From the NCBI GenBank assembly GCA_017453045.1, contig JAFTKX010000027.1, positions 1-64,000 on the forward strand: DNA of 64,000 nt, in the 5' to 3' direction. This DNA comes from Clostridia bacterium. GTDB taxonomy: Bacteria > Bacillota > Clostridia > Christensenellales > Borkfalkiaceae. Positions within the stretch are counted from its first letter, which is position 1. The number at the start of each line of letters is the position of its first letter. The notes under the pieces were generated by a model. The model was not told the DNA's origin. It did not search any database and saw only the letters and a list, made by a program, of their open reading frames with translations. This document shows, piece by piece, positions 12,902 through 30,107 of the stretch. A program made the position numbers and the translations under genes.

Positions 12902-12930
12902 AAAAGCGATAAGATTTTCTTATCGCTTTT
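12902..12930 (-). terminator. Hairpin between the Gfo/Idh gene and the mannosidase
   Basis: AAAAGCGATAAGA and TCTTATCGCTTTT pair perfectly around a short T loop. It can end transcripts of the gene at 12998, and it also overlaps the expected start point of the promoter at 12931-12959, so it may form at the 5' end of the mannosidase mRNA. Confidence 0.75.
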
Positions 12931-12959
12931 ATTATCTCTTACTAAAAGACCTTTGTCAA
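12931..12959 (-). promoter_or_regulatory. Promoter of the GH38 gene
   Basis: On the minus strand: TTGACA (12954-12959), 17-bp spacer, GATAAT (12931-12936). The ATG is 58 bp beyond, with AGGGAG before it. Confidence 0.7.
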
Positions 12960-12997: not shown

Positions 12998-14272
12998 TTA
13001 CACCTTTGCAGGTCTTTGAGTTTTACGACTTTCTTCAGCGCCGTAAACGAGCAAATGGCTTGCAACCGAATCGTGTAAATGAGTAATTGAAAGCGAAGCG
13101 CGTTCGCCGTTTAAATACCTAACTAAATCGTTCATAATACCGTAGTCGCCACCGCTGTGTCCGCCGTATTTAGCCTTGTTTATAATTTGTGTTGTAAGGT
13201 CGACGATTTCTTCTTTAAAACTTATCGTAGTTTCGTCGTATTTTCTTACGATAAATTTATTTTCTTCAAGTTTACCTTCGATTTCGCCGTCTGTTCCTAC
13301 TATATGTATATATCTGTCGGGCTTACTCGTTCCGCAAGAAAGGGTAAACGCAACGACGGATTTATCTTCAAAATCAACGATAAGATTTTGCCTATCCATA
13401 ACGTCTCCGCCTGCCGAATAAGCGCATCTTCCGTAATCGCTCGTCTTTAAAAATTCCATTTTTTCTTCAAGAGTAATTTGGTCGTAAGGTTTGTCGAGCG
13501 AATCCCAAACCAAAAACGGCATTACGTCTTGTCTTATATAATGCGCGATTGCGCTGTATTTACATTCTTTTTCACGCGGGCAATTATAGCAAAACTCAGT
13601 AGCGTTTTCGGGCTTGTTTTCCTTAACGAAATAACTCCTGTGTCCAAAGCAAGAAACCGATTCAGGCTTTGACGGATTAAGCCAACAAATAAGGTCCATA
13701 TCATGACAGCATTTAGCAAGCAAGATAGGGCTTCCGCACACCTTTTCGCTATTCCATTTACCCCTTACGTAACTCGTAAGGAAATGGGGTACCCAAACGT
13801 GTTCGTTCATTTCCATAGAAACGATTTTACCTATTTCACCTTGGTCAATTAAGGCTTTAATCGACTTATAGAAAGGGCTATAGCGCAAAACGTGACATAC
13901 GAACACCTTGCAATTTTTTTCATTTGCAAGCCTTACTATCTCGTCTAATTCTTCTCTTTTAGAAACGATAGGCTTTTCGATAAGCATATCGTGTCCCGAT
14001 TTTAATATTTCGATTGCCGTATGATAGTGTTGTTGTTCCATCGTAGCGTTTACGACTATATCGACGTCGATATTAGACTTAATAAAATCTGCGTAACGCG
14101 TAAAAGTTTGACCTTCACTAAGCGAATATCTATCCCTTGCAACTTGTAATTTGTACACGTTAGGGTCGATAACCGCCACAATTTCAACTTCGTTTGGTTC
14201 GTCTAAAGAATAATCGGCATAAACTTGTCCTCGGTTGCCGTACCCGACTATTGCTATTTTTATCTTTCTCAT
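12998..14272 (-). CDS. Gfo/Idh/MocA family oxidoreductase (Cys-rich type)
   Basis: A 424-residue paralog of the gene at 7859-9088. The Rossmann start is IAIVGYGNRGQVYA, the EKP motif is LIEKPIVSKRE, and CCHDMDL follows. The same cysteine pattern is present: CYNCPREKEC and a later YGRCAY, implying a bound metal centre. The proteins share HSGGD/HMGGD near the C-terminus. Two related dehydrogenases beside GH38 and GH36 may act in sequence or on different sugars; whether they are true oxidoreductases or NAD-dependent glycosidases (as GH109 is) cannot be told here. Confidence 0.9.
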   Translation of the reverse strand: MRKIKIAIVGYGNRGQVYADYSLDEPNEVEIVAVIDPNVYKLQVARDRYSLSEGQTFTRYADFIKSNIDVDIVVNATMEQQHYHTAIEILKSGHDMLIEKPIVSKREELDEIVRLANEKNCKVFVCHVLRYSPFYKSIKALIDQGEIGKIVSMEMNEHVWVPHFLTSYVRGKWNSEKVCGSPILLAKCCHDMDLICWLNPSKPESVSCFGHRSYFVKENKPENATEFCYNCPREKECKYSAIAHYIRQDVMPFLVWDSLDKPYDQITLEEKMEFLKTSDYGRCAYSAGGDVMDRQNLIVDFEDKSVVAFTLSCGTSKPDRYIHIVGTDGEIEGKLEENKFIVRKYDETTISFKEEIVDLTTQIINKAKYGGHSGGDYGIMNDLVRYLNGERASLSITHLHDSVASHLLVYGAEESRKTQRPAKV

Positions 14273-14368: not shown

Positions 14369-16783
14369 TTACTTTCTCTTTCTTGCAACGAAAACAACTG
14401 AGCAAAGAGTAAGGAGAGCAAATACACCGCTTGCTCCGTTTACGTTTCCGCCACATCCGCTACCGGTATTACTATCTTGTGGATCAGCGCTAACCGTAGG
14501 AACGGCGTCAACAGCAGTATTGAACGCGCTTACTGCAGTATTAATTTCTTCTTCAGTAGTTGCGTTTTCAATCGCTGTTTTTGCATCATTGTAATGACCG
14601 TTGATAACTTCTACGTTTTCGTCGGTGTAAAGAGTAAGGTCTAAAGACGCTTTCTTTTGGTTGATTTGGGCTAAACCTGCTTCTTTAGCGCTTGCTAACG
14701 CTTCTTCAGCGTCAAGTTCAGCGTCCGTCTTTAATGCGTCGATTGCTTCTTTAGCGTTTGCAACGATAGTAGCGATTTCGCTTTCTTCAGTTGCTTCGTC
14801 GATATCTGCGTTTGCTTCAGTTATAATAGTTGCTCTTTCAGTTGCTTGTTCGTCGCGATATAAATCAGCGTCTGCTTTGTAAGCGTCGAGGTCTGCTTTA
14901 GCGTCAGACTTTGCAACTGCAAGTTCTTCAGCGGTAAGTTCAGCGTCGGTCTTTAAAGCGTCGATATCTTCTTTAGCGTCTGCAACGAGCGCGCTGTTTT
15001 CCTCATAAGTTTTGCTTGCGTCGATTGCTTCGATTGCAGTAGCAACGATAGAATCTCTGCTTGCCTTTTGTTCGGCGCGGAATAAGTCTGCGTCTGCCTT
15101 GTAAGAGTTAAGGTCTGATTCTAAAGATGCAACTACTTCTTCTTTAGTAGCGATTTCATCAAGAACTGCTTGCGCGTCAACAACCGCTTGGTTGATTGCA
15201 GTTTCGTCGGCAGCGTTATTAACGCCTTCATGTCCGCCTGCGATAGCGTCGTCGATTGCTTGATGTTGTTCTTCGTAATAATTTGCCTTATCTAAATAGT
15301 TAGAAATTTCTGATTTTGCGTCTGCTTTTGCTTGAGCGAGTTCTTCGTCAGCGTACTGCGCGGCAGTCTTTAATGCGTCGATTGCTTCTTTAGCGTTTGC
15401 AACGATTGTGCTAACTGCATCGCTTGCAGTCGCTTCGTCTAAAAGACCTTGCGCGTTTTCAACGATTACTAATCTTTGCGCTTCTTCTACTTGGCGGAAT
15501 AAACCTGCTTTATAGTTTGCAACTTCTTCTTTTGCAGGATTGATAACGTCTGCTTTTGGAGTTACTTGGTCTATCGCGCTCTTTGCAGCGGTAACTGCGC
15601 CTTCAACGGTTGCAACGTTTTCAGCAGAATCAATAGCCGTCTTTGCAGTAGAAACTGCGGTGTCCATAACGGTAACGTCAGCAGTAAAATAATCAGCGTC
15701 TGCTTTACCTGCTCTATAAGAGTCAATTTCAGCCTTAGCAGTTGCTTTGAACTCGTCGAGTTTAACCCATTCGCCTGCGCTCGTCTTATAGAAAGTTACG
15801 TCAGTTTGAGTTTGATAGAAGATATATACTGGGTTGCCGTAAGTTGCCCAAAGCGGAGCCATAGCACGCGATGGGAAAGTAGTTCCTGCAGGAATAGTAA
15901 TGCTTTGCATATTTTCTTCTGCAACGCGGTTACAGAAAGCAAAATATCCTTGTCCTTTAGTTCCAAGACCAAACAAACCGTATTCTTCAACGCTACCAAC
16001 GGTACCGTTTATTTGTATATTTTTCTCATATCTTGTTGTATTAAAAACAGGATCTTCGTAATTTTGGTTTACTTCAAGAGTATCTCCAGCATAGTCGTCG
16101 CCTTTAAGCGATACTCCAAAATATCCGGCAGAACCGTCGTGTCCTTGAACGTATTTAACGCTTTCTACGTCGGTCTTACCAACAGACATAATACCGTATG
16201 CAACGGTAGACGTTGAAGAAACGAATTCACATCCTGCTCTAAATACGGTTGTAGAAGTGCCTTGTAAATAACCGTAACTTGGAATTAAAGCGCCTTCTAA
16301 AACGGTTATAGGATATGCATGACCTACGCCTGCGGCGCTTGCAGTCGTCATATCTTCTTCGCTCATCCTAAGCGGAATTCTAAGCGTATGCAAAGGCTCG
16401 CCTGCATTTATCCAGTAACTGTTGGCATAACACGCGGAACAGCCCCACTCAGCCAAAGTCTTTTCGCCTAACTTAATTTTGTTAAAGAAATCTAAACTTT
16501 TAAGCACGCCTGCCAAATCAGTACCATACAAATCCGTATTAAATGATTTTTCACCTGCGTCGGTTCTTGCCCAGTCTACTTCGCCTAACGTAATAGTAAT
16601 TTCAAAGTTACCATTACCGTGCCAACCAGCAACTCTACCGAGAAATGCTACGTCTTTAGTAACGTAAGTTGGGGTTTCGGCTTTCGCCGTGTTGTTGCTT
16701 TGCATAGTTGAAAAGCCAAAGCCGATAGTTACGGCAAAGAGCGCCAACAAACATGCAATTAACGTTTTCTTGATTTTCCTCAT
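14369..16783 (-). CDS. Secreted helical-repeat surface protein with GCGG-type tail
   Basis: An 804-residue protein. The signal peptide (1-35) ends at AKAETP. Residues about 36-340 are a beta-rich domain of unknown type with scattered cysteines. From about 345 to 765 are repeated Ala/Asp/Glu-rich helical units of about 70 residues sharing KEAIDALKT and DLDAYKADADLYRDEQ, like FIVAR/albumin-binding three-helix modules. A Ser/Gly linker leads to SGCGGN, a hydrophobic segment and RKRK: a C-terminal sorting-signal layout without LPXTG. It is probably a surface adhesin or glycan-binding protein of the uptake operon. Confidence 0.8.
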   Translation of the reverse strand: MRKIKKTLIACLLALFAVTIGFGFSTMQSNNTAKAETPTYVTKDVAFLGRVAGWHGNGNFEITITLGEVDWARTDAGEKSFNTDLYGTDLAGVLKSLDFFNKIKLGEKTLAEWGCSACYANSYWINAGEPLHTLRIPLRMSEEDMTTASAAGVGHAYPITVLEGALIPSYGYLQGTSTTVFRAGCEFVSSTSTVAYGIMSVGKTDVESVKYVQGHDGSAGYFGVSLKGDDYAGDTLEVNQNYEDPVFNTTRYEKNIQINGTVGSVEEYGLFGLGTKGQGYFAFCNRVAEENMQSITIPAGTTFPSRAMAPLWATYGNPVYIFYQTQTDVTFYKTSAGEWVKLDEFKATAKAEIDSYRAGKADADYFTADVTVMDTAVSTAKTAIDSAENVATVEGAVTAAKSAIDQVTPKADVINPAKEEVANYKAGLFRQVEEAQRLVIVENAQGLLDEATASDAVSTIVANAKEAIDALKTAAQYADEELAQAKADAKSEISNYLDKANYYEEQHQAIDDAIAGGHEGVNNAADETAINQAVVDAQAVLDEIATKEEVVASLESDLNSYKADADLFRAEQKASRDSIVATAIEAIDASKTYEENSALVADAKEDIDALKTDAELTAEELAVAKSDAKADLDAYKADADLYRDEQATERATIITEANADIDEATEESEIATIVANAKEAIDALKTDAELDAEEALASAKEAGLAQINQKKASLDLTLYTDENVEVINGHYNDAKTAIENATTEEEINTAVSAFNTAVDAVPTVSADPQDSNTGSGCGGNVNGASGVFALLTLCSVVFVARKRK

Positions 16784-16849
16784 TTTCTTTTCCTTTTCCT
16801 TATTTTTATTTAGCCTTTCGGCTATAATTCCTAAATGAAAAATTTTTGT

Positions 16850-16878
16850 TTCCTACTGCAAAAAACTTACAGTAGGAA
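16850..16878 (-). terminator. Hairpin after the lipoprotein gene at 16884
   Basis: TTCCTACTG pairs with CAGTAGGAA around an 11-nt loop. On the minus strand it is followed by an A/T-rich tract with five Ts a few bases on. It may only partly separate the two cistrons. Confidence 0.6.
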
Positions 16879-16883
16879 TAGTT

Positions 16884-18536
16884 TTAACTTCTTGGCCAAC
16901 CTTTAGTTTCGTCTAAAAGATGTTCGTTTGTTAAAATTTTATCGTCTTTAAGTTTACCGAAAACCGAACTCATTTCGTCGGTATCGCCAACAAAGAGCGC
17001 GTACGAATATTCAAGCGGAACAAAGTCAACCATCTTACGTTTAAGTTGCGGATTTATATAACCGTAATTCATTGCCGCGTAACTTGGAGTTATTTCTCCG
17101 TCTGCAAAGGTGTAAAATCCACTATGATAAAGCCTGTTACATTCTTCGCTATAGTAGTTGTTTGATTTTCTACCCCTTGACGCGATATAAGTGTCTGCAT
17201 TTGGCATAAATATACCAACGCCGAACTTATTAGCATTTACAAAAGCGCACCAGTCGTTAATCATATACTTTTCGTTAATTCCGTAGAAGTATTCTGCAGA
17301 AGATACGCTAGACTTAAGACTTGCTTTAGGTTGATTTATACCGTTTTGCTCTGCAAGATTAGGATCGAATATAACGCCTTGTTTCGTTTCGCAATAGAAA
17401 TAATTGAGCGGATATGCGAAGTAAGTTGCAGGAGTTTCTTGTCCCATAACCTTAAGTTCGCTTTCTCCGACGAAACAAGAGAAATCGGTGTACACGTTAT
17501 CGACCATCAATGCTCCGCCCTCGTCGAAATAATAGGTAACTTCGATATAGCCGTTAGATTGAATATTAGTATAGAAGAACCACTCTTGCGCCTTCATAAT
17601 TATATAAAGGTAGTTTTCTTTCCAAACGTAATCAATAATTTGCGGAGTATGACCGCCGAAGTCCCCACATTGAATCGGGTTGTACATTACTCTACCGCCA
17701 AGACCTTCGTAATAAGAATCGGTATCTTCGGGATCGTAATCCGGGTTGTAACCGTTTGCTTGGGTAACGTCCGAATAATAAGACGGTTGAACTTCACGAC
17801 CTAAGTCGTAAATATTTATAAGGTTAACGCTGTCGCTTACAACTTTTAAAGCGTCGTAATCGGGGTCTACGTAACGGTCAATAGTGATGTTTCCGTCAAA
17901 ATCCATATACTCGTAAACGTCTTGCCCAAGTTTTTCAAGATAAGTTATACATCCGCCGTAAAATGGCGAAGTTCCCAAAACCGTATCGCCGTTTGAAATA
18001 CGCCATTCTTCTTTAGTTACGATTTTTCTATCCGAAACGCCTAAAGAATTAAAAGTGAACGTACCTTCTTTGGTATCGTCAACGCTTTGGAAAGTAATCG
18101 TACTTATAACCTTATTAAACGCTCCGCGAGCGCCAACTCTAAACGAGTCCAAAAAGGTAGTAAACTGTTTGCTTCCCGCTTTGATAAAGAACTTTTCCGA
18201 GTTCGTCTCGGTAGGTTTATCAGCGTTATAATAATTGATATAACCTACCAAGTTTACGTCGGTTTCAATATCAAACTTAACGTAATCTTTATCGTTTATC
18301 TTCGCATAAACGTCGTATTTTACGCATCCGTCTTCGTGAGAAGTAGTTTCGACGTACTTTTCTAAAGTCTTTTGATTTCCGTCCGTAAAAACGTTTGTAA
18401 ACGCGTAACTGTCAAGCGTGTAATTAGGAGTTTCCACCTTGTCGCTATCGTTATTCCTTTGTTTACAACTAAAGCAAAGCGTCATAAAAATTCCAGCGAG
18501 AATAAAACAGGATATTCTTTTAAAAATATTTTTCAT
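16884..18536 (-). CDS. Secreted lipoprotein, beta-sandwich-like, unknown function
   Basis: A 550-residue protein with an N-terminal signal ending TLCFSC, a weak lipobox. The middle holds YDLGREVQPSYY (about 245), MYNPIQCGDFGGH (about 285) and a run of beta strands. I recall this D-GR-x-x-Q-x-SYY / NP-x-Q-x-GD arrangement from uncharacterised secreted proteins of glycan-degrading bacteria, but cannot name the family. It starts 11 bp after the gene at 18548, with an AAAGGAG site, in the sugar-uptake operon. It could bind or cut the extracellular glycan; no catalytic residues are certain. Confidence 0.72.
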   Translation of the reverse strand: MKNIFKRISCFILAGIFMTLCFSCKQRNNDSDKVETPNYTLDSYAFTNVFTDGNQKTLEKYVETTSHEDGCVKYDVYAKINDKDYVKFDIETDVNLVGYINYYNADKPTETNSEKFFIKAGSKQFTTFLDSFRVGARGAFNKVISTITFQSVDDTKEGTFTFNSLGVSDRKIVTKEEWRISNGDTVLGTSPFYGGCITYLEKLGQDVYEYMDFDGNITIDRYVDPDYDALKVVSDSVNLINIYDLGREVQPSYYSDVTQANGYNPDYDPEDTDSYYEGLGGRVMYNPIQCGDFGGHTPQIIDYVWKENYLYIIMKAQEWFFYTNIQSNGYIEVTYYFDEGGALMVDNVYTDFSCFVGESELKVMGQETPATYFAYPLNYFYCETKQGVIFDPNLAEQNGINQPKASLKSSVSSAEYFYGINEKYMINDWCAFVNANKFGVGIFMPNADTYIASRGRKSNNYYSEECNRLYHSGFYTFADGEITPSYAAMNYGYINPQLKRKMVDFVPLEYSYALFVGDTDEMSSVFGKLKDDKILTNEHLLDETKGWPRS

Positions 18537-18547
18537 AATCTCTCCTT

Positions 18548-21169
18548 TTACGCTTCAACGGTTATTGAAATCGCTCTTATGCTTATTTGTTCGCCGTGGA
18601 ACTCAAACGCAACTTTTGCAAGATATTTGTTAAGATAGGTTGCAAGGTCCGCGCCTTCGATTACTACCGATACAGCCGACCACTCGTAATCGCCCATATT
18701 CGAGTCTATGTCAAGAGCATGTTTTTGCATTACGGGAAGCCCACTACCGTCGCCGGGGTTATAATCGTCTTTATCAAACGATAAATGTAATCCTATCTCG
18801 TCTGTATCAGTTCTATTTTGATAGATAAGCGTTACTACCGTTCTACCCGTAATAAGTACGTTTTTGGTAGTGTGCGGAGTGCTTAAATAGGTTGCCGCTT
18901 GAGAGAAACCTATATAAATTGACGAAGACAAATACGGTTGGTTTACACCCTTTATAAAGGTTGATTTCTTTTCTTTAGAATCGTACTCGTAGAAGTTTTC
19001 AACGCCTTTCCAGTCGTTATTCGCTTCATATACGAGTTTGTACGAACCGTAGAACGGCAAACTCGTTTCGTTTACAGTATAAATAATTTCGTTTAAGACT
19101 ACTGTACCCGTTCCTTCAAAAGTAAGTCTTACGGATTTTACGAAACCGCTTTCGCTTTGCACAAGCGCAACTGCTTCCGTCGTTGCCACTTTACCTTTAA
19201 CGGTTAATTCAAATTCGTACGGGGTTCTGTATTCTCCGTCAACTTTTAATTCGACCTTTACTTTAGTAACGTTAGAGTTGCTCGGTAAATTATATTTAAG
19301 CGCAATATACGCATAACCTTCGTTGGTAGCGTCGTAACTCTTATCAGGAGACGCTACGACAGCGCCACTTTCTAAAACGTTAAATTGTATACCCTTATCT
19401 TTACTCTTGAACTCAACTTCAACTTTTTGATTAGATTCAAATCCGTAACTGTTTTTATCGTTAAAGTTAATACCTACGCTGTCGTACGGAACGAATTCAG
19501 TAAAGTAAACGTCTTCAAATAAAATTAAGTTATCTACGCCTACCGCTTTATAAACGAACTCAACCTTTTCAAACTTTCCTTCCATACCGTATAGCCCGTA
19601 CATATTTACGGTATATACGTTTTTGCTCGGCATTTTTTGAGCAATTTCAATCGTAGCCTTTACGGGAACGCCTTGGTCGTTATAAACGTAAACAATAAGT
19701 TCTTCGGCATACCCAAAGTTTTGTAAGGTTACGTTAAGCGTAGTAAGGTTGCCCATATCAATTACCCTGTTTTCAGGACAAGTAATTGTAAATCCTGCCG
19801 ATTCACCGCCAGTTTTACGGGCTTCTACTTCGTTTTCAGCGAAGAACAATACGCCTTTAGTCGTTTTAAATACTTGAGCGTTTTTAGTTACTTGACTGAC
19901 GTTTGCGTGATCTTTTACAAAAGATACGCCGTTATTTATAGTAATGCTCGAACCCGCGCTTTGAAGTTCAGCGTCGGTTGCGCTTACCATTTTATCTTTT
20001 ATTTCATCCGTATCGTCAACGACGATTTCGTGCGGAACACCTTCGATTGACTTTATAAGCATTTCGTTAGACCAGTCGTCGTCGCCAAAGTTGGTGTATC
20101 CTACTTCTATACGGAGAGCGCCGAGATACGGAGAAGTTCCCCAGATAGAATATCCGTTTTTGTAAACTTCATACAAGTTAAGGTCAACGGTTACCCACTC
20201 GTCGTCTTCGCTCATTTCGCTTTCAATCGCGATAGGATGACTATTCGAGCCAGCCCAGTTAGGCCAACAGAAATTAGCGTTATACCATGCGCCCGTTTCA
20301 GAATAAGTATTCTCGTCGAGCATTGCGGTAAAGTAACAAGTCATTTCGGTTGCAGGGCCTAAATTTTTATAAGTTATTCTTATAATTTGAGATTGCGAAA
20401 TATCAAGGTTTAAACTAAGTTCTACGAATCCGTCGGGAATAATAGGCGTAAAACCAAAATTGACGTAAGTACACTTTTCGCCCGTAGACTCTATGACGTA
20501 TTCTTCAACCCAACCTTCTTCCGTACCCGTTGGATAAGAACCGCAAGCGGCGGTCAAATAATTTGTGAGAGTACCCGAAGAAAGTAAGTTTTCTTCAACG
20601 CTGTCGCTTAAATATATACCTTGACTACGCTTTACGTAAACGTTGGTATTTTTGGTAATAGGCGCGGTAAAATCGAACTGTTGAGTATGCTCTACGTCCG
20701 TAAACGAACCTAAATATTTATAACCCTTTACGAGTTCTGCCGTTTCTTCTAAAAGGTCTCCGTTAAAAACGTTTACCGTAGAGTGCATTTCGCCGTTTAC
20801 GTAATAATTTACGTCGTAGAGTTCAACCCACTTTGCGTATAAGGTCATATTACCGGAAACTCTACCGTTTTTAAAATCCCATTTGCTATCCGCTTTACAA
20901 TCTTTCGTAGTGTACCAGCCGTAAACTTGTAAGTTGGTTGGATTATCGCCCTTAATGAACGCCTTTGGTTGAGATACCCTTCTTCCTATCTTTATTTCTC
21001 TCTCTTGAATCACGTTAGTTTCAAGTTCTGTGTTAACGTCAAATTTAACCACCGCCGTATCCGCTGGCGTTCTATTTACTAATTGAACGATAACGACAGT
21101 ACCTGCAACTGCCAAAACCACCGCTAACACGGCAGAAATGAGTATAATTAGTAATTTCTTTTTACGCAT
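18548..21169 (-). CDS. Large membrane-anchored extracellular protein with InlB-type repeats
   Basis: An 873-residue protein. An N-terminal membrane segment (5-30) is followed by two Listeria/Bacteroides (InlB B) repeats: VYGWYTTKDC..NMTLYAKWV (about 82-112) and VNYYVNGEMHSTV..YLGSFTD (about 117-160). Several beta-sandwich domains resembling carbohydrate-binding modules follow (ISQSQIIRITYKNLGP, and a repeat of that style near 830). The layout suggests a surface glycan-binding protein held outside the membrane. It lies 13 bp after permease 2 and 11 bp before the lipoprotein gene, so it belongs to the uptake operon. No catalytic motif was seen. Confidence 0.75.
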   Translation of the reverse strand: MRKKKLLIILISAVLAVVLAVAGTVVIVQLVNRTPADTAVVKFDVNTELETNVIQEREIKIGRRVSQPKAFIKGDNPTNLQVYGWYTTKDCKADSKWDFKNGRVSGNMTLYAKWVELYDVNYYVNGEMHSTVNVFNGDLLEETAELVKGYKYLGSFTDVEHTQQFDFTAPITKNTNVYVKRSQGIYLSDSVEENLLSSGTLTNYLTAACGSYPTGTEEGWVEEYVIESTGEKCTYVNFGFTPIIPDGFVELSLNLDISQSQIIRITYKNLGPATEMTCYFTAMLDENTYSETGAWYNANFCWPNWAGSNSHPIAIESEMSEDDEWVTVDLNLYEVYKNGYSIWGTSPYLGALRIEVGYTNFGDDDWSNEMLIKSIEGVPHEIVVDDTDEIKDKMVSATDAELQSAGSSITINNGVSFVKDHANVSQVTKNAQVFKTTKGVLFFAENEVEARKTGGESAGFTITCPENRVIDMGNLTTLNVTLQNFGYAEELIVYVYNDQGVPVKATIEIAQKMPSKNVYTVNMYGLYGMEGKFEKVEFVYKAVGVDNLILFEDVYFTEFVPYDSVGINFNDKNSYGFESNQKVEVEFKSKDKGIQFNVLESGAVVASPDKSYDATNEGYAYIALKYNLPSNSNVTKVKVELKVDGEYRTPYEFELTVKGKVATTEAVALVQSESGFVKSVRLTFEGTGTVVLNEIIYTVNETSLPFYGSYKLVYEANNDWKGVENFYEYDSKEKKSTFIKGVNQPYLSSSIYIGFSQAATYLSTPHTTKNVLITGRTVVTLIYQNRTDTDEIGLHLSFDKDDYNPGDGSGLPVMQKHALDIDSNMGDYEWSAVSVVIEGADLATYLNKYLAKVAFEFHGEQISIRAISITVEA

Positions 21170-21182
21170 ATCATTTTTCTCC

Positions 21183-22085
21183 TTACAATTTCAATCCCGC
21201 AGCGAATTCACCGCTCTTGAAATATTTCATAGATATAACGGTCGTTATAATAAGTGGAATTGACGCCAAGAAGTACATTGCGTACATTGCGCCGTATTCA
21301 ATAGCGCCCGTATCAACCGCAGAAAACATTGCGTACGTCAAAGTTAAATTCTTTGACAAGATAAGGCTTGCCCAGAGATATTCGTTATAAATACCCGAGA
21401 AACATCCCACGAAGTAGTATAATATAATAGGAAATGCAAGCGGAACGGTAATTCTCGTTAAAACAACGAAATCGTTTGCCCCGTCTAAACTTGCGCTTTC
21501 GTATATAGATTTGGGTTGCTGACTGAAGAAAGTTTTAAATAAAAACATTCCCGATACTTGCGCGCCACCTATCATCGCTATAAGATAACCTGCGTAATTA
21601 TCTCCAAGCCCAAACGTTTCGCTAACGAGCGGAACGAGAATCGGATATCCAATAATCGACGGAACTAAAAGAACGGAGATAAAAAGTAAGAATACGAAAT
21701 CTTTAAAATAAAAATCCTTAAACGAGAGAATATACGCAAGTATTGCGCCGACTATCGTTTCGCACACCGCGCCGATAAGCGCGACGATAATAGTTCTAAA
21801 ATAAAATTTTCCTATTGCTCCCCAAGCCCTTGAAAAGTTTTCGCTTATCGCTTGACCAAGCGTATTAAAAGCAGGGAACGAAAAGGCGTTAAACTGCACT
21901 TGCTCGTCCGTTTTAAACGTATTCATAACCGTCAAGAAAAGCGGTAAGAACGAAAATACTAAACAAATGATTATAACCGTTAAAATTACTACTTGAACGG
22001 GAGTTTTTTCGTGTGGGAGTAAAAGAGTGCTTCTCCTTGGTTTTACGGTAGGAGTAACCATTTTTACGTTGTTATCTTCCATCAT
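21183..22085 (-). CDS. Carbohydrate ABC transporter permease (MalG/LacG type)
   Basis: A 300-residue inner-membrane protein with six hydrophobic segments. The EAA loop is IYESASLDGANDFVVLTRI then PLAFPI near residue 195, contacting the ATPase. It forms the pore with the permease at 22082-24721, whose stop codon it overlaps by 4 bp (ATGA), so synthesis is probably coupled. There is no ATPase gene in the window; as in many Firmicutes a shared MsmX-like ATPase elsewhere is expected. Confidence 0.93.
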   Translation of the reverse strand: MMEDNNVKMVTPTVKPRRSTLLLPHEKTPVQVVILTVIIICLVFSFLPLFLTVMNTFKTDEQVQFNAFSFPAFNTLGQAISENFSRAWGAIGKFYFRTIIVALIGAVCETIVGAILAYILSFKDFYFKDFVFLLFISVLLVPSIIGYPILVPLVSETFGLGDNYAGYLIAMIGGAQVSGMFLFKTFFSQQPKSIYESASLDGANDFVVLTRITVPLAFPIILYYFVGCFSGIYNEYLWASLILSKNLTLTYAMFSAVDTGAIEYGAMYAMYFLASIPLIITTVISMKYFKSGEFAAGLKL

Positions 22086-24721
22086 AAATCAGCCCCCATC
22101 GCGTCTTTTTTCTGCATTTTAAAGTTCGTTGCTATCGCCGCGAACAAGAAAATGAATATGAGCGTTGCGTACGCGCTCGACATACCGTAGTTACCCGCCG
22201 TCATATATTCGTACATAGATTGTACGGGCGTTGAAACAGCCTTTGACCTTAAAACGTGCGTTCTTGCAAAGTTTTGAACGGAACCTATGAACGTCGTTAT
22301 AAAAATATACTTAATTTGTGGCATTATAAGCGGTATGTCAATAGATAAGAACCGTTTTATAGTTCCTAATCCTTCCAATCTTCCCGCTTCGTGATATTCT
22401 TTTGGAATATTTATCATACCGCCGTAGAAAATCAAGTATCCGCCTATGAACGGGAAACCCATTAAAATAAGCGACCATCTTGAAATGCTTTCATTTAAGA
22501 ACCATTGTACCTTTTCTCCGCCCATGCTCATTATCATTTGGTTTAAAATACCCGTATCGCCGTAGATTCCTTGACGCCAAATAAGCATCGTAGCAATACT
22601 TGGAATAATTCCGGGTATGAACATAAGCGCCCTTATCCAGTTCGACGTAACCTTGTTCCTTATGAGTATGAGTAATATTGCAAATATTACGGGTGGAACG
22701 ATTGATAAAATCAAGTCAAACACAAGGAAGAACAACATATTAAAGACTGACCTTAAAATGTTAGGTTCGTTAAAAATCTTTATGTAGTTTGCAAAGTTAT
22801 TCCATATCCACGCAGGACTTTCTTTAGTATAACTAAAGAACGACATTGAAATCGCGCCGACTGCTTCGTAATAACAGAACGTTATGAGCATTGCTATAAA
22901 CGGTACGAGCGCAAGATATACGAATTTATTCTTTTTGGAATCCTTTGCTATAAACTTAATTTTAAGCAAAGATTTTTCGCTCTTTGACGCAACCGCAAAA
23001 TAAAGAGCAAAAATTCCCGTGATTACCGCTATTGCGATAAAAGCGATAAACACCACTTTTGTAAGCGTTTTCGTTTCAAAACGAGCGGGATTGTAAGTAC
23101 AAGCGACACGCTCCGGAGAGTCGATACCCTTTAAATTTACTTTAGTTATTTGACGAAGACAATGAGTAACCGTATTTTTACTGTCGCCAACCAAATTAAC
23201 CATATCGAAATTACCTTCAAAAGTGTATAAAACTTGATAATTTTGCATATCGTTTATATCCACTATCGAAACGGTTTTTTCGTTTGCAAATTTTAAATAT
23301 AAAGTGTTTGCGTGTTCGTTGTAGTTCATTCCGTTTCCGAAATTACTAAAAGTTTGTCCTTTCTTACAATGCACGCTTTCAATTTTTGTTGAAACCAAAC
23401 TAATTGCGGTATTCGTTTCCGCCTTAAACAAGTCGCTTGCCGTCGCAACGTAAAGATAACCGTCCGACGCGTTCGCGTAATATAACGCCCTGTTCTTTTT
23501 TGAGTAAACCATACCGTAAATGGTACTTTCACCCGCATACAATACTTGATATTTTGCTTTATCTAAATATTCCGACTTGACTTGCAAATGCATTTCGTCT
23601 TTGTCGTATTTTTGTTGCCAAGAAGAAGTCATCGGATATTTAGCGTCGGCAGAAGTTTTTGCGCTTTCCGCAGCCGAATTCTTTTGGTTGTTTATAGTTC
23701 TATCTTTATAGTCGTTATCTTTATAGTACTGTAAAATTTGTTCAACCGTTGCCGAGCGGATTTGTTCTTCGGTTACCGTAAACTCTTTACCGTCTGCAAT
23801 TCGGCTTGCCCTACGTTCGATTAAGTCGGCTACGAGATATTCCTTGTATACCTTGTCGTATTCCGCTTGCCATTTTGCTTCAATTTCAGGGTCTTTTACA
23901 GATTCTTGTTCTGCTTTTGCAAAAAAATCGCTTATGTCGTCAGAGTCGACAAATTCGGTGCTTAAACGAATTATTCCGCCGTCTTTTTTGCACATTAAAA
24001 TATAGTCGTCTTGAACGTAGAAGCCTATTATTCCCGCGCCGATTGCTAACGCTTCGACTTTGTTATAACCGCTATCCGCACCCGTGCCGATATCCCACAA
24101 AAACTTGCGATTTTGCTCGCCTGCGCTTAAATTTTGAAGGTCGTATTTTAAAACGTAACAAAAACCGCCTTCTTCAACGAACATATAAAAGTCGTTCCCT
24201 TGATTATCCGACGCTCCACAATCTCTTTTTTGCACGGTTTCGCCGTTTGCGCCTAAAATAAAGTAATCTTCGGTAAGTTCTAATTGTCCGTTTTGGTTTT
24301 CTTTATATTTGAAAAGGTTTCCGTTACCGTCGTTAACGACGTAAAAATTTTCGCTTTCCGTTTTTAAAGTATGATATTGCCATTGATCGAAAGTGCATCT
24401 GTCAACGTTTTTTTCGCCCTTTCTTTCAAGCATTTCTTTAATTTCGGCGGTAACGTTATTCTCAGAAATTACTTCGTCGGTAGCCGTGTCCAACCCGTAA
24501 ATCCAGTTTTTTGAACTAAGATAATAGGTTTTTTCGTCAAACCCAGCCATAATTTCTTCTATGTATTCTTCGTCTTTAGAAAGCCTTTTTATTTGATTTG
24601 CCCTTGGAGTTAAACAAATAAATAGCGTGGCGAGTAACGCGCTCACTATAAAAATTACAAAAAATACGAGCGCTGTACTTTTTACTCGTTTTCTATCTTG
24701 TTGAGTTATTTTTATGCTCAT
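22082..24721 (-). CDS. Carbohydrate ABC permease fused to a large extracytoplasmic domain
   Basis: An 879-residue protein. Segment 1 (about 15-37) is followed by roughly 525 mostly polar residues, which should lie outside, with WIYGLDTATDE, a charged helical stretch (about 265-375) and strand-rich parts like a beta-propeller. A second segment near 565-585 leads into a normal MalF-type permease of about 290 residues with the EAA loop EYHEAGRLEGLGTIKRF and DIPLIMP. The extra domain may collect substrate or dock the binding protein. It overlaps permease 2 and follows the binding-protein gene after a hairpin. Confidence 0.88.
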   Translation of the reverse strand: MSIKITQQDRKRVKSTALVFFVIFIVSALLATLFICLTPRANQIKRLSKDEEYIEEIMAGFDEKTYYLSSKNWIYGLDTATDEVISENNVTAEIKEMLERKGEKNVDRCTFDQWQYHTLKTESENFYVVNDGNGNLFKYKENQNGQLELTEDYFILGANGETVQKRDCGASDNQGNDFYMFVEEGGFCYVLKYDLQNLSAGEQNRKFLWDIGTGADSGYNKVEALAIGAGIIGFYVQDDYILMCKKDGGIIRLSTEFVDSDDISDFFAKAEQESVKDPEIEAKWQAEYDKVYKEYLVADLIERRASRIADGKEFTVTEEQIRSATVEQILQYYKDNDYKDRTINNQKNSAAESAKTSADAKYPMTSSWQQKYDKDEMHLQVKSEYLDKAKYQVLYAGESTIYGMVYSKKNRALYYANASDGYLYVATASDLFKAETNTAISLVSTKIESVHCKKGQTFSNFGNGMNYNEHANTLYLKFANEKTVSIVDINDMQNYQVLYTFEGNFDMVNLVGDSKNTVTHCLRQITKVNLKGIDSPERVACTYNPARFETKTLTKVVFIAFIAIAVITGIFALYFAVASKSEKSLLKIKFIAKDSKKNKFVYLALVPFIAMLITFCYYEAVGAISMSFFSYTKESPAWIWNNFANYIKIFNEPNILRSVFNMLFFLVFDLILSIVPPVIFAILLILIRNKVTSNWIRALMFIPGIIPSIATMLIWRQGIYGDTGILNQMIMSMGGEKVQWFLNESISRWSLILMGFPFIGGYLIFYGGMINIPKEYHEAGRLEGLGTIKRFLSIDIPLIMPQIKYIFITTFIGSVQNFARTHVLRSKAVSTPVQSMYEYMTAGNYGMSSAYATLIFIFLFAAIATNFKMQKKDAMGADL

Positions 24722-24761
24722 CAGTATACCCCATAAGAGAATTTTCTCTTATAACTTATTT

Positions 24762-24791
24762 CCTTGCCCCACCTAATTAGGCGGAGCAAGG
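24762..24791 (-). repeat. Hairpin between binding protein and permease genes
   Basis: CCTTGC-CC-CCTAA pairs with TTAGG-GG-GCAAGG. There is no strong T-run after it on the minus strand. Its place between the binding-protein and permease genes fits a stabilising or partial-attenuation hairpin that gives more binding protein than permease. A smaller palindrome (ATAAGAGAA/TTCTCTTAT, 24732-24751) follows. Confidence 0.65.
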
Positions 24792-24812
24792 TTTATTTTT
24801 ATACGTTACGTT

Positions 24813-26525
24813 TTATAAGTTGTAATTTGGATTTTCCCAAACGTCGTTAGTCCATTTAGATTTAGTAGCCAAAGTATGAGCGTCTTCTTCAACGGCGGTC
24901 GACCAATAAGACGCAAACGCGGCAACGGTAAGGTCGTTACCCGTTCCACCTATCAAAAGTTTACGCCAGTTTTCACAAATGATCGCTTGAACTCTCATTT
25001 CACCGCAAGTATATCTAACGCCCCAAGATAAGAATACGTTAGCGTCTACGTCGCCCGAGAACTTAATAGTTTTGTTACTTTCGGTAAAGAACGAAATCCA
25101 TTCAGAAGGAATAACTACGAGTTCGTTTTTAACGGTAGAAAGTCCCTTTGGAACTTTGTTCGCGCTTGCTAAACCTTTATAGTATATAGTTTGTCCGTAA
25201 GGAGATAATACGAACTTAACGAAATCTTTACTAAGTTCGGTTTGTGCAGAATCTCCGTCGTGTCTTACGATAGAAATGAAACCGCCGTTACCGCCTATAT
25301 CGCGAGTAATAGTTTCTTCAGGAACGTACTCCGAAACCATAGTGGGATAATCGAAATATCCAACGCTAAAACCACTCTTTTCCGCCTTTTCGTAAGTTAT
25401 TCCAAAGCCTTGATAGTCAAGAATAATTTGAGGTGACGACATACCCTTACTTTGCGTTTCAAACTGATCGCGCAATTGACCGAATTCGGTAGTAGACGGG
25501 TTTTGTATAAGGTGACCTTTCATCTTTGAAAGTTGAGTTACAAAATCAATATAAACTTCGCTCGTAAATCCAACGTAGCCCGGTTCATAAGGATATTCTC
25601 TATCAAAAAGCATACCAAAGATTTTTGAATACTTATGTCCGTAACCTGCAAGGTTTTCGGGTACGGTTGCCGTAGGATCGTAATTTGCCCAAGAAGTTCC
25701 CGCTTCTCCACTTTGGATAAATTCGTAGAATTGACGATAATAGTAATCGCCGTAAACACGTAAAAGCCAAGTAAATTGCAAAGATTCGATACTTGCGTCA
25801 CATAAAGTTATTCCAAGCGGATTAGTATAATTTGCTTGTTCCATATATTCGCAAAGACTGATAAGGTCGTCCCAAGTAATAGGATAATCTTTATCGCCGT
25901 CTTCGTTGCGATAGCCCTTTTCAACTGCCGCTTGGAAAGCAACGTCGTTTATAAACCAACAAGTTTGCATTATTTCGGTATTCATAATAATGCTTTGCTT
26001 TGAAGTGTCGGCTTCTTTAGTTCTATACGCTTCGGGCTTTAAAACGTCTTCCCACTTAACGTCTTTTCCGCAATATGGGTTAACAGCCGCAACGTTTGAA
26101 TACATATCTACGCAACGGGTTGGGGTGTTTCCGTAACCTAAGTTACCTTCTACTATATCCCAGTCCGTATCGGTAGCGGTAAGTTCTTGATTAAGCCTTT
26201 CAGAATATTGAGAACCTGCGTGAGTCGTGTTAATATTAACCGTTACGCCACCGCCTTGTAATCTTTCGTATTCGTCAGCAAGGGCTTGCCAACCCGATTG
26301 AGTTCCTTCAAAGTCAAGACAAACGTCAATATTTCCGGTAAGCGCTCTAATAGAATCGGTGTCGGGCAAATACTTTGCGTCAAAGCCTGCGCCAAGTTCA
26401 GCAACCGTAAGGGGTTTTGCCGTAATCATACCTTTTACGCCCTTTTTCTTACACGATACCACGCCGGAGAGCGAAGCCATACACAAAACTAACGCGCATA
26501 CACTACTTAAAATCTTCTTTTTCAT
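24813..26525 (-). CDS. Extracellular sugar-binding lipoprotein of the ABC importer
   Basis: A 570-residue family-1 solute-binding protein. The signal ends LSGVVSCKKK with a lipobox Cys near residue 26. The mature part begins with an unusually marked DVCLDFEGTQSGWQALADEYE and has ITWDDLISLCEYM and FVKFVLSPYGQTIYY, typical of sugar-binding proteins, though longer than the usual 420-450. It delivers substrate to the two permeases downstream. A GGAGG site precedes the ATG; the promoter is at 26689-26717, divergent from the AraC regulator. Confidence 0.92.
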   Translation of the reverse strand: MKKKILSSVCALVLCMASLSGVVSCKKKGVKGMITAKPLTVAELGAGFDAKYLPDTDSIRALTGNIDVCLDFEGTQSGWQALADEYERLQGGGVTVNINTTHAGSQYSERLNQELTATDTDWDIVEGNLGYGNTPTRCVDMYSNVAAVNPYCGKDVKWEDVLKPEAYRTKEADTSKQSIIMNTEIMQTCWFINDVAFQAAVEKGYRNEDGDKDYPITWDDLISLCEYMEQANYTNPLGITLCDASIESLQFTWLLRVYGDYYYRQFYEFIQSGEAGTSWANYDPTATVPENLAGYGHKYSKIFGMLFDREYPYEPGYVGFTSEVYIDFVTQLSKMKGHLIQNPSTTEFGQLRDQFETQSKGMSSPQIILDYQGFGITYEKAEKSGFSVGYFDYPTMVSEYVPEETITRDIGGNGGFISIVRHDGDSAQTELSKDFVKFVLSPYGQTIYYKGLASANKVPKGLSTVKNELVVIPSEWISFFTESNKTIKFSGDVDANVFLSWGVRYTCGEMRVQAIICENWRKLLIGGTGNDLTVAAFASYWSTAVEEDAHTLATKSKWTNDVWENPNYNL

Positions 26526-26688: not shown

Positions 26689-26717
26689 ATTATAACTCTA
26701 CGGGCAAGTACAGTCAA
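26689..26717 (-). promoter_or_regulatory. Promoter of the sugar-uptake operon
   Basis: On the minus strand: TTGACT (26712-26717), 17-bp spacer, TATAAT (26689-26694). It lies in the 309-bp gap shared with the divergent AraC gene. Confidence 0.82.
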
Positions 26718-26834: not shown

Positions 26835-27677
26835 ATGATACCAACCATTAAAGATTATCCAAAAGACAAAACGCATTACGAGCATTTTGCAGACGACGCG
26901 TATTATATTTTCTTGCAAAAGCACGCCTTTTTCTTGGACGTTCCGCATTATCACGATTCAATCGAAATACTTTGCGTTACCAAAGGCAAAACTACCGTCC
27001 ATTTAAACGGCGCTACTTACGACTTGTCCGAGGGCGAAATTTTCGTAAGTAATAGTCAAATGGTGCATTACTACGAAAATTATGACGACGATAAAATGGC
27101 TATTATCGTAGTTTTAAGCGAAAAGTACATGCGCACGTTTAAGGAAGTGTATAAAAACGCTTTACTCCCCCATCTTTTAAGGGATAAACAGGCAAACGCG
27201 CAAATCTTTTCTATTATGGAAAGTTGGATAAACAGCCAAAACCGTTCGATACTTATCGACACGGCGTACGCCAACGCGCTATTCGATAAAATTATTTCGC
27301 TTTACGGCGTTATTTCGGTTGACCAAGTAGGCGGTAACAACGACCTCGCGATACAGTTTATAAATTACGTCAACGAACATTACAGCGAAGAAATTTCTCT
27401 TGAAACAGCTGCAAAGCATTTCGGATATTCTAAAGAATACTTTTCAAAGAAATTTAAGCAGACGTTAGATAAAAACTTCTTGTCGTTTTTAAACGCGGTA
27501 AGGCTTCAAAAAGCAATAGAATTGTTGCAGGATAAAACCAACAAAATGAGTTTTATTGAAATTTGTTTGGCGTGCGGTTTTAACAACGCCACTTCGCTCT
27601 ACCGCCATTTAAAAAAGGCAAACTATAAAATTCAACGGCAAGACGTTGACGAAGATGACGAAAAAGACGGTCTATAA
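26835..27677 (+). CDS. AraC-family transcriptional regulator
   Basis: A 280-residue regulator. The N-terminal cupin-type sensor has VPHYHDSIEI near 39 and LSEGEIFVSNSQMVHYY near 64-80. The C-terminal double HTH (about 175-270) has ISLETAAKHFGYSKEYFSKKF and ACGFNNATSLYRHLK. Such proteins bind a sugar and activate nearby uptake genes; the divergent operon (26525 and on) and the alpha-galactosidase are likely targets. No other Met codon suits an earlier start. No Shine-Dalgarno site is present and the -10 box is 6 nt away, so translation is probably from a leaderless transcript. Confidence 0.93.
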   Translation: MIPTIKDYPKDKTHYEHFADDAYYIFLQKHAFFLDVPHYHDSIEILCVTKGKTTVHLNGATYDLSEGEIFVSNSQMVHYYENYDDDKMAIIVVLSEKYMRTFKEVYKNALLPHLLRDKQANAQIFSIMESWINSQNRSILIDTAYANALFDKIISLYGVISVDQVGGNNDLAIQFINYVNEHYSEEISLETAAKHFGYSKEYFSKKFKQTLDKNFLSFLNAVRLQKAIELLQDKTNKMSFIEICLACGFNNATSLYRHLKKANYKIQRQDVDEDDEKDGL

Positions 27678-27874: not shown

Positions 27875-30046
27875 TTACTTTTTCACTTCAGTAAATAAAA
27901 CTGAATATCCATCGCTACGTTTTTTCCTAAATAAGTCGCCTATGCGAATACCAACGTTCATTAAAGTTGAACCGTATAAAACGACTCCGCTTTCTTCGTT
28001 TTTGTACTGTTTGTCGGGATCTAACCCTTTTAACCGCAAAGTAGTGCTTTCTACAAATCCCGTTGCGTTAAGTTCTAAAAACGTTAAATACGCTTTATCC
28101 TTTTGCTTTGACACTTTCATATACGCGCAGAAAGAACCGCTTTCGGGCGAAATTATTCGGTATAAGTCGCCTTTTAAGTTTAAATCTTCAATTTCACGAT
28201 ATTTTTCGGAATAGCCTTTAAACATCTTTTTATCTTCGCTTGAATATTCGCTCAAATCTAACTCGTAACCGTAAGAGCCGAACGACGCGACGTTGTATCT
28301 AAATTCGTAAGTCGATTCCCTACCGCTCGTACAATCGCCCCTTGTAAAATGACAACTTAAGGTTGATACGGGGTAAGCGACGCTCGTTCCGTTTTGAATA
28401 AACACTCTCGCATACGGGTCGGTATTGTCGCTCGTCCAAATTTGCGGAGAATAATATAGCATACCCAAGTCAAATCTTCCGCCCCCACCGCAACAAGTTT
28501 CAAACAGAGCCTTTCCAAGCCTTTGCTTTAAAATAGCAAGTAATTTGTAACTGCCGAGCATTTGACGGTGATAAACTTCGCCTTGCGCCGTTTTAAACGA
28601 ACCTGCTTCGGTTGCGTAGCGATTAAAATCCCATTTTATATAATCTATTTCCGCGCCTTCGAGTTCTTGACTTATTCTGTCTGCAATCAAATTTACAACT
28701 TCGTCTCTCGTAAGGTCTAAAATATATTGATGACGAGAAATTAACGGGGTTTTTGACGTAGTCAAAACGTATTCGGGATGAGTTTTGTAAAGTTCGCTGT
28801 TTTCATTTACCATTTCAGGCTCTAACCAAAGCCCGAATTTTAAGCCCATTGCATGAATTTTATCCGCAAGCCCTTTTATTCCCGACGGAAATCTCTCTTT
28901 GTCCGTACGCCAGTCCCCTAGCCCCTGTTTGTCGTGCGGACGAAACCATCCGTCGTCTAAAACTACGGTATCTATTCCGCAATCTTTTGCAGAAGACGCA
29001 AGTTCTAAAACCTTATCTTCGCTCACCGCGAAATAACTTGCTTCCCAAGAGTTGATAACGATAGGACGAGCCGAATAAACGAACTCTTTTTCAATAATAC
29101 TCTGACGAACGTGATCGTGGAAATTCCTACTCATTTGACCTATTCCGCCGTTTGAATAAGTCATAACGGCTTCGGGAGAACAAAGACTTTCGTTAGGTTT
29201 TAAAGTCCAGTACAGCCCCACGTCGCTTATGCCCAAAAGAACTCTGGTATCGCCTAAAAAACTAACCGACACTTCTTCGGAAAAATTACCGCTATAAACG
29301 AGATTAAATCCGTAAACTTCGCCCATTTCTTCGTCGGCGTTGGGCGAACAAATTGCTATAAATGGATTTTTACAATGCGAAGTCGTACCCGTCAAACTCT
29401 CGTTTTTAAACGTTCCACGTTTAATACGGTTGCGAGATACCATAGCGCGTTCGTAAATATACATACCTTCCAAGGTTATAACGTCGTAATCCATACCGTA
29501 AAAATCCACGCAAGCGCTTGCAAATTTTTGAACGGTTACGTTCGTTTTGCCCGTGTTTTTAATCGTTTGATGACGAGCAATCACGTCTACGTTTTGGAAA
29601 ACGGTATAAAACAAGGTAAATTCCACTTGATTATCGTCGTCGGTAAGAGTTATTTGCAAAGTTTCGGTATCTTCGCTCTCTCTCGAATAAGGCATTCCGT
29701 CGATTTGCTTTCTACCCTTGTAAATTTGATGAGAGCGATAGCGCAAACGGTTGCAATCTACATTTCCGTCGCAGTTGTAAATAACCGACGGCGTGCGAAT
29801 ATCTCCGCTGTTAAACGGCGCGATTTCAAAACCTTGAACGGACGCGTTAAACTCTCTCTTTTCTCTGTGTTCGTGAGCGACGTGTCCGTAAATTTGCCTA
29901 TTCCCGATATGTTTCACGTTGTCGTCGGGAATTTTTTTGCCGTAATATAAATGCTCTAACGAATTAAAGTCGGAAATGCAAAATACGTAAGACGTATTTT
30001 TCGTTTGAAGGTGGAAAATTTGTTCTTTTTGGTTAAATCTTATCAT
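27875..30046 (-). CDS. GH36 alpha-galactosidase
   Basis: A 723-residue retaining alpha-galactosidase. Landmarks are VVLDDGWF, GDWRTDKERFPSG, FGLWLEPEMVN, DYIKWDFNR near 470 (nucleophile Asp in KWD), CGGGGRFD and WTSDNTDP near 540 (acid/base Asp). It has no signal peptide, so it should act on imported raffinose-type sugars or galacto-oligosaccharides. I chose ATG at 30046, 8 nt after AAGGA, over a GTG at 30070 with a crowded ribosome site. The length is normal for the family. It is likely part of the AraC-controlled set. Confidence 0.95.
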   Translation of the reverse strand: MIRFNQKEQIFHLQTKNTSYVFCISDFNSLEHLYYGKKIPDDNVKHIGNRQIYGHVAHEHREKREFNASVQGFEIAPFNSGDIRTPSVIYNCDGNVDCNRLRYRSHQIYKGRKQIDGMPYSRESEDTETLQITLTDDDNQVEFTLFYTVFQNVDVIARHQTIKNTGKTNVTVQKFASACVDFYGMDYDVITLEGMYIYERAMVSRNRIKRGTFKNESLTGTTSHCKNPFIAICSPNADEEMGEVYGFNLVYSGNFSEEVSVSFLGDTRVLLGISDVGLYWTLKPNESLCSPEAVMTYSNGGIGQMSRNFHDHVRQSIIEKEFVYSARPIVINSWEASYFAVSEDKVLELASSAKDCGIDTVVLDDGWFRPHDKQGLGDWRTDKERFPSGIKGLADKIHAMGLKFGLWLEPEMVNENSELYKTHPEYVLTTSKTPLISRHQYILDLTRDEVVNLIADRISQELEGAEIDYIKWDFNRYATEAGSFKTAQGEVYHRQMLGSYKLLAILKQRLGKALFETCCGGGGRFDLGMLYYSPQIWTSDNTDPYARVFIQNGTSVAYPVSTLSCHFTRGDCTSGRESTYEFRYNVASFGSYGYELDLSEYSSEDKKMFKGYSEKYREIEDLNLKGDLYRIISPESGSFCAYMKVSKQKDKAYLTFLELNATGFVESTTLRLKGLDPDKQYKNEESGVVLYGSTLMNVGIRIGDLFRKKRSDGYSVLFTEVKK

Positions 30047-30107
30047 GGTTTTATTCCTTATTGCGTTCACCTTTCGTAAACGCGCCGTACGACACGATTA
30101 TACAATT

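Follow-up and report, generated by a model that had tools for sequence, protein, structure and literature searches.

A conserved Clostridia transport operon with three large surface proteins as a putative Gram-positive polysaccharide-utilisation locus

Gene content and organisation of the locus

The operon described here lies at positions 14369-26525 of a 64,000-nt stretch of DNA from a Clostridia bacterium (contig JAFTKX010000027.1, assembly GCA_017453045.1), called the window below, and combines the genes of a sugar importer with those of three large surface proteins, one of them a 550-amino-acid (aa) lipoprotein (LP550) that is a candidate surface glycan-cleaving enzyme. Within the genome assembly (G000; 1.62 Mb in 71 contigs, 91% complete) the window is contig C16. 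Its closest named relatives are metagenome-assembled genomes of uncultured Clostridia from goat, sheep and roe deer gut. Protein families were assigned by Pfam and NCBIfam scans against family cut-offs, and gene order was compared among 80 relatives and the DNA surrounding their clusters. The operon is predicted from the DNA sequence, and its promoter-like sites are those of a consensus scan.

Six minus-strand open reading frames, running from 26525 down to 14369, encode proteins of 570, 879, 300, 873, 550 and 804 aa. The gaps between the 804-, 550-, 873-, 300-, 879- and 570-aa genes are 100, 11, 13, -4 and 91 bp, respectively. The original prediction made from this DNA, a near-contiguous run of six minus-strand genes of these sizes, is borne out by the reading-frame list and the short gaps, and the binding protein, two permeases and InlB repeats that it named were confirmed by Pfam. 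It had also described the run as free of an ATPase gene, and none is found within 14369-26525.

The run does not end at 14369, as had been proposed. In three genomes of the same genus (G006, G008 and G001; clusters L078, L079 and L080) a divergent AraC gene is followed, gene for gene, by the solute-binding protein, MalF-like, MalG-like, 873-type, 550-type, 804-type, Gfo/Idh/MocA and glycoside hydrolase family 38 (GH38) genes. In G010 the same order is kept across two contigs, with one extra reading frame of 543 aa. Since relatives keep the MocA and GH38 genes in the same order, the 14369 edge cuts through a unit. So much shared gene order, over genomes and classes alike, far exceeds what chance would give. 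The supposed absence of a hydrolase inside the run is likewise doubtful, as GH38 belongs to the conserved run and the closest fold to the model of the 550-aa protein is that of a glycoside hydrolase.

No terminator-like site was found on the minus strand in the gaps from the solute-binding protein gene to the MocA gene. A promoter-like site (TTGACT-N17-TATAAT, 11/12 consensus positions) lies upstream of the operon on the minus strand at 26689-26717. A second, strong promoter-like site, TTGACA-N17-GATAAT at 12959-12931, and a hairpin lie between the MocA and GH38 genes (12902-12959, minus strand); thus, GH38 may be transcribed separately. Rfam matches in the window are tRNAs only, so no known riboswitch was seen at the operon.

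The 550-aa lipoprotein

LP550 (16884-18536, minus strand) carries an N-terminal lipobox, LCFSC. Neither the Pfam and NCBIfam scans of LP550 itself nor the Pfam scans of its large homologues gave a family for the 550-type domain. Its earlier description as a beta-sandwich lipoprotein is consistent with the lipobox and with a beta-rich model (mean pLDDT 70.3, pTM 0.77). The super-sandwich domain predicted for residues ~168-547 (16896-18035, minus strand) is closest to the GH174 structure 8jd7 (Z 22.3, root-mean-square deviation (rmsd) 3.5, 268 residues), and a second GH174 structure, 9k1g, matches at Z 20.9 with rmsd 3.1 over 256 residues. After this pair the next entry drops to Z 17.4, and galactose mutarotases follow as a group near 15-16 (GalM, 15.6).

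Relatives of LP550 occupy 308 stretches in the scan of named genomes. In an alignment of 82 diverse homologues, with a mean column identity of 25%, R247, Y254, Y285, N286, P287, Q289, Y335, E367 and P369 are invariant, and D292, D302, E332, D351, W319 and W429 are near-invariant. Such a pattern of invariant polar positions would be as expected of an active site. In rate of divergence LP550 is comparable to GH38 and the binding protein, whereas the 873- and 804-aa proteins change faster. Other 550-type homologues are secreted proteins encoded away from transporters, and one carries a dockerin type I domain (L145:2726-4957). This dockerin fusion points to cellulosome-like complexes. Four tandem, divergent 550-type genes stand in one cluster (L094:6413-13450), which suggests diversified specificity.

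The 873-aa and 804-aa surface proteins

The 873-aa protein (18548-21169, minus strand) is a membrane-anchored surface protein with an N-terminal hydrophobic segment (residues 1-34) and a candidate glycan binder. Residues ~38-188 (20606-21058, minus strand) hold InlB/Listeria-Bacteroides repeats (PF09479, Flg_new, E 3.4e-7, in two stretches), with profile matches to Internalin B at E 7e-6. The remainder could be described from an AF2 model (pLDDT 71.5, pTM 0.43) as a series of beta-rich units on the same strand. A first sandwich at residues ~205-381 (20027-20557) matches xanthanase 6fhj (Z 12.5, 154 residues, with model residues 147-381). A second at ~411-561 (19487-19939) resembles carbohydrate-binding modules (CBMs), namely CBM86 6sgf (Z 14.1), CBM11 (Z 12.8) and CBM29 (Z 11.7), as does a third at ~564-700 (19070-19480; CBM17 1j83, Z 11.2; CBM6, Z 10.4). 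A fourth beta-rich stretch at ~726-872 (18554-18994), seen by DSSP of the model, is barely covered by the fold comparison. At least three jelly-roll domains are predicted to fold like CBMs (Z 10-14 for the five CBM families), and Foldseek matches of the model include SGBP-B (7kwb). At the level of sequence the protein differs from these families: no CBM match was found in Pfam, where Flg_new alone scored above cut-off. On its folds, the protein may bind glycans multivalently.

The 804-aa protein (14369-16783, minus strand) begins with a signal peptide, is helical in its second half and is anchored in the membrane at its C terminus; it is a helical-repeat surface protein, as first described. 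Two head domains of about 145 aa (residues 45-187 and 195-341; 15761-16651, minus strand) are repeated in larger orthologues and in proteins that contain the 550-type domain. A helical-repeat region follows at residues ~350-775 (14459-15736, minus strand; internal repeat E 6e-22; DUF1542 E 0.02, below cut-off). Through repetition of the head and helical parts, some orthologues are as long as 1,952 aa. Heads of the 804 type and the 550-type domain also occur together in single proteins of 1,148-2,054 aa; therefore, the two types are functionally linked.

By hydropathy, the 804-aa protein ends in a membrane helix and an RKRK tail, preceded by SGCGG (14378-14443, minus strand). A tail of the form GCG(S/G/A)-membrane helix-KKK/RKRK is shared by this protein (14378-14450) and 12 other listed entries of related genomes, and is possibly an unnamed surface-anchoring signal.

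Remote-homology and structure searches, which had been suggested as a check on all three surface proteins, gave CBM-like folds for the 873-aa protein and a GH174-like fold for LP550. For the 804-aa protein the search of PDB sequences led no further than V-ATPase subunit G, through coiled-coil similarity put down to chance, and its faint likeness to V-ATPase_G or PlsX was dismissed as an effect of composition.

Distribution of the core

A core of MalF-like, MalG-like, MocA (or AraC::MocA), 873-type and 550-type genes recurs in Bacilli (L086, L088), Tyzzerella (L108) and other Clostridia clusters (L097, L098, L099, L102, L105, L113). The cluster with four tandem 550-type genes, L094, holds the right-hand part of this core, and L106 holds the same genes in a different order. 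In keeping with inheritance as a unit, distances among 550-type proteins follow those of MalG (r 0.81, n=17) and of 873-type proteins (r 0.89, n=15; permutation p 0.0001 in both), and these r values still include a part due to shared genome ancestry.

In six related clusters the AraC regulator is fused in-frame to the Gfo/Idh/MocA oxidoreductase, giving proteins of 703-716 aa (L097:3679-5829, L094:348-2459, L099:4944-7091, L056:13456-15570, and also L098 and L102); Pfam confirmed the fusion in two. This arrangement suggests that the oxidoreductase may sense the substrate and report it to the regulator, in a Gal80-like manner. Literature searches, with subscription papers largely outside their coverage, found neither a paper on an AraC::MocA fusion nor a description of the gene set of this operon.

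The importer and a shared ATPase

The solute-binding lipoprotein (570 aa; 24813-26525, minus strand) belongs to SBP_bac_1 (PF01547, E 2.4e-7) and has an N-terminal hydrophobic segment with lipobox GVVSC. The MalF-like permease (879 aa; 22082-24721, minus strand) matches PF00528 (E 6.6e-7), with NCBIfam similarity to MalF/UgpA/GlcT below cut-offs, and the MalG-like permease (300 aa; 21183-22085, minus strand) matches the same family at E 7.2e-12. Between membrane helices 1 and 2 of the MalF-like permease, hydropathy places an extracytoplasmic insert of ~507 aa (23078-24598, minus strand), in which no Pfam family was found. Most relatives have a MalF-type insert of ~330-540 aa by the same measure.

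Multitask ATPases of the MsmX type serve CUT1 importers that have no ATPase gene of their own (PMC7658222). In the genome a single ATPase of the UgpC type passes the curated threshold (G000:C52:134299-135465; 476 bits vs 432). It has no permease gene beside it, and its scanned neighbours are unrelated: a carbamoyltransferase, a DegV protein, a Spo0A C-terminal domain protein, an M18 peptidase and a class II tRNA synthetase. As this lone gene matches the multitask arrangement (PMC7658222), the absence of an ATPase gene from the operon is ordinary, and by analogy the C52 protein may be the candidate partner of the operon permeases. The genome has 23 BPD_transp_1 matches, about eight of which resemble CUT1 pairs by position and size. 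The locus is like such importers in its binding protein, two permeases and distant UgpC-type gene, and differs in the ~510-aa extracytoplasmic insert after membrane helix 1 of its MalF-like subunit. Another ATPase, at G000:C50 and matching PF08402, was rejected as the importer ATPase; two permease genes come after it, and it is therefore PotA-like.

Comparison with known systems

Loci of this arrangement have been termed Gram-positive polysaccharide-utilisation loci (gpPULs) in Roseburia and Eubacterium rectale (PMC5320581), and are defined by a carbohydrate transport system, a transcriptional regulator and at least one polysaccharide-degrading enzyme (PMC5320581). The present locus resembles them in joining an ABC sugar importer, an AraC regulator and a glycosidase gene without SusC or SusD. 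Its transport system is the solute-binding protein with two BPD_transp_1 permeases, its regulator is the divergent AraC protein conserved in relatives, and for the polysaccharide-degrading enzyme there are candidates: the 550-aa protein, and the glycosidases GH38 and GH36, which may or may not act on a polymer. In published gpPULs the CBMs are attached to recognised glycoside hydrolases (PMC5320581). The locus differs in that its transporter operon includes a candidate new enzyme as well as two large surface proteins that have not been described. It is of a known kind, with an undescribed surface family at its centre.

The operon had also been likened to the Sus-like systems of Bacteroidetes. 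The analogy holds for function, in that surface glycan capture is coupled to import, and the SGBP-B match of the 873-aa model (7kwb) is a further likeness. It does not extend to the machinery: Pfam and NCBIfam scans of the cluster proteins showed no TonB-dependent SusC- and no SusD-type protein, and import is by ABC transport across a single membrane. Pfam and NCBIfam gave no match supporting a role in sporulation or phage defence, in a search that did not extend to the PADLOC defence library.

Proposed function and alternatives

On balance we lean towards reading the locus as a Gram-positive polysaccharide-utilisation locus in which the 873- and 804-aa proteins hold a polymer, LP550 cuts it and the ABC transporter imports the products. 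From the gene content and order, their conservation as a unit, the predicted folds and the orphan ATPase gene we infer the binding, the cleavage by LP550, the ATPase pairing, the substrate and the regulation. Polysaccharide would be held at the cell surface by the 873-aa anchor, with its InlB spacers and CBM-like sandwiches, together with the 804-aa protein as a stalk that spans the wall. LP550, with its mutarotase-like super-sandwich closest to GH174, would cut the held chains, probably endo-wise. The solute-binding protein could then pass oligosaccharides to the MalF/MalG-like permeases, which would be powered by the shared UgpC/MsmX-type ATPase encoded elsewhere. Within the cell the Gfo/Idh/MocA oxidoreductase and GH38 may process the sugars, and the AraC-type regulator may sense a product and control the operon. 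Glycan capture and import, as first proposed, are supported by the CUT1-type importer, the divergent AraC gene, the CBM-like domains and the glycosidase-like fold of LP550, and further by the GH38, GH36, GH42, GH2 and GH106-like genes linked to the locus in this genome or in its relatives.

The part played by LP550 is the point on which the alternatives divide. Tentatively, LP550 may found a new family of hydrolases or lyases that cleave glycans at the cell surface, with a mutarotase-like super-sandwich fold, widespread in Clostridia and Bacilli of herbivore guts and encoded in ABC operons with a CBM-studded anchor as a capture-cut-import module. It could instead be a non-catalytic glycan binder, a counterpart of SusE/SusF, with the polymer cut by other microbes or by enzymes from other loci and the operon serving purely capture and import. 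LP550 belongs to no recognised catalytic family, super-sandwich domains are often accessory, the tandem copies in L094 resemble multi-binder arrays, and in the closer clusters LP550 nearly always stands next to CBM-like 873-type proteins. We consider this rather unlikely, as many polar residues are strictly conserved across distant homologues, the nearest fold is by a clear margin that of an enzyme, and 550-type domains occur outside transporter clusters in secreted proteins, once with a dockerin. Galactose mutarotases are also among the leading fold matches (Z about 15), and LP550 could act as a mutarotase- or epimerase-like enzyme that conditions surface oligosaccharides for the transporter and cuts no chains. 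With GH174 some 6 Z units higher, and an extracellular mutarotase being unusual, this is improbable. Lower still in probability, and hardly credible, is that the surface proteins are adhesins for attachment to host or particles which lie next to a sugar transporter incidentally. Adhesins often contain InlB repeats and helical repeats of the DUF1542-like sort, but such a role would fit poorly with the CBM-like folds, the linkage to glycosidase genes, the co-divergence with MalG and the strict placement within transporter operons of several genera and classes.

An enzymatic LP550 is nevertheless open to several objections. Searches of PDB sequences with 12- and 82-sequence LP550 profiles returned nothing, and the larger profile reached no GH174 chain up to E 10. 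GH174 endo-1,3-fucanases (8jd7, 9k1g) are thus like LP550 in predicted fold and unlike it in having no detectable sequence similarity, and LP550 is not called a GH174 member because no sequence relation appears even with the larger profile. The substrates of reviewed GH174 members are sulfated fucans, for the most part of sea cucumber origin, and the catalytic residues listed for Fun174A are D119, E120 and E218 (PMC11943901). The likeness of the LP550 model to GH174 is one of overall fold. The model has a mean pLDDT of 70, with loops of low confidence at 256-285 and 457-488, near the YNPxQxGD motif, and the super-sandwich fold is common also to non-catalytic domains and mutarotases. The co-divergence of 550-type proteins with MalG and 873-type proteins follows also from shared ancestry of the genomes. 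The invariant motifs, the dockerin homologue, the secreted homologues away from transporters and the GH38-like rate of divergence give an enzyme a modest advantage all the same, and a surface enzyme is the probable reading of LP550.

More than 300 relatives of LP550 in gut genomes are without a family name, and are therefore missed by current annotation of fibre use in uncultured bacteria. If LP550 is an enzyme, many clusters read as transporters without a hydrolase become complete degradation systems. Its conserved pairing with a CBM-like anchor is a concrete candidate for how a polymer is retained near an ABC importer in Gram-positive gut bacteria.

Neighbouring genes and possible substrates

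The divergent AraC-family regulator (280 aa; 26835-27677, plus strand) matches PF12833 (E 3.1e-14) and PF02311 (E 3e-11). On the other side of the operon, the MocA oxidoreductase (424 aa; 12998-14272, minus strand; PF01408, E 5.6e-20) and the GH38 glycosidase (831 aa; 10378-12873, minus strand) hold the same places in relatives, with GH38 orthologues in G001, G006, G008 and G010. Catalytic, middle and C-terminal GH38 domains (PF01074, E 3.9e-30; PF09261; PF07748) are all above cut-off, and the genome has three GH38 genes. A GH36 alpha-galactosidase-like protein is encoded beyond the regulator (27875-30070, minus strand; PF02065, E 1.4e-113). GH38 and GH36 had been placed next to the operon and both are present; their standing differs, in that GH38 is part of the conserved run and GH36, of all the relatives read, adjoins the cluster in G006 alone.

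As to the sugars, GH38 and GH36 do no more than hint at alpha-mannose and alpha-galactose. Nothing specific supports the galactomannan or raffinose-type substrates once put forward, and no beta-mannanase was seen in the cluster; the genome was not searched for one. Neighbours in relatives include GH42, GH2 mannosidase-like and GH106-like genes. As these neighbouring genes change between relatives, the core probably serves as a common chassis that has been adapted to one glycan or another. A DUF4886 protein and two SGNH/GDSL esterases are encoded near the cluster (30265-31059, 9286-9924 and 3657-4361). The two esterases hint at acetylated glycans, and the three proteins possibly deacetylate the cluster's glycan. 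A protein of 553 aa (5952-7613), which has hydrophobic segments at its N terminus and matches no Pfam family, lies beside a second MocA oxidoreductase (7859-9088), and this pair is conserved in G006.

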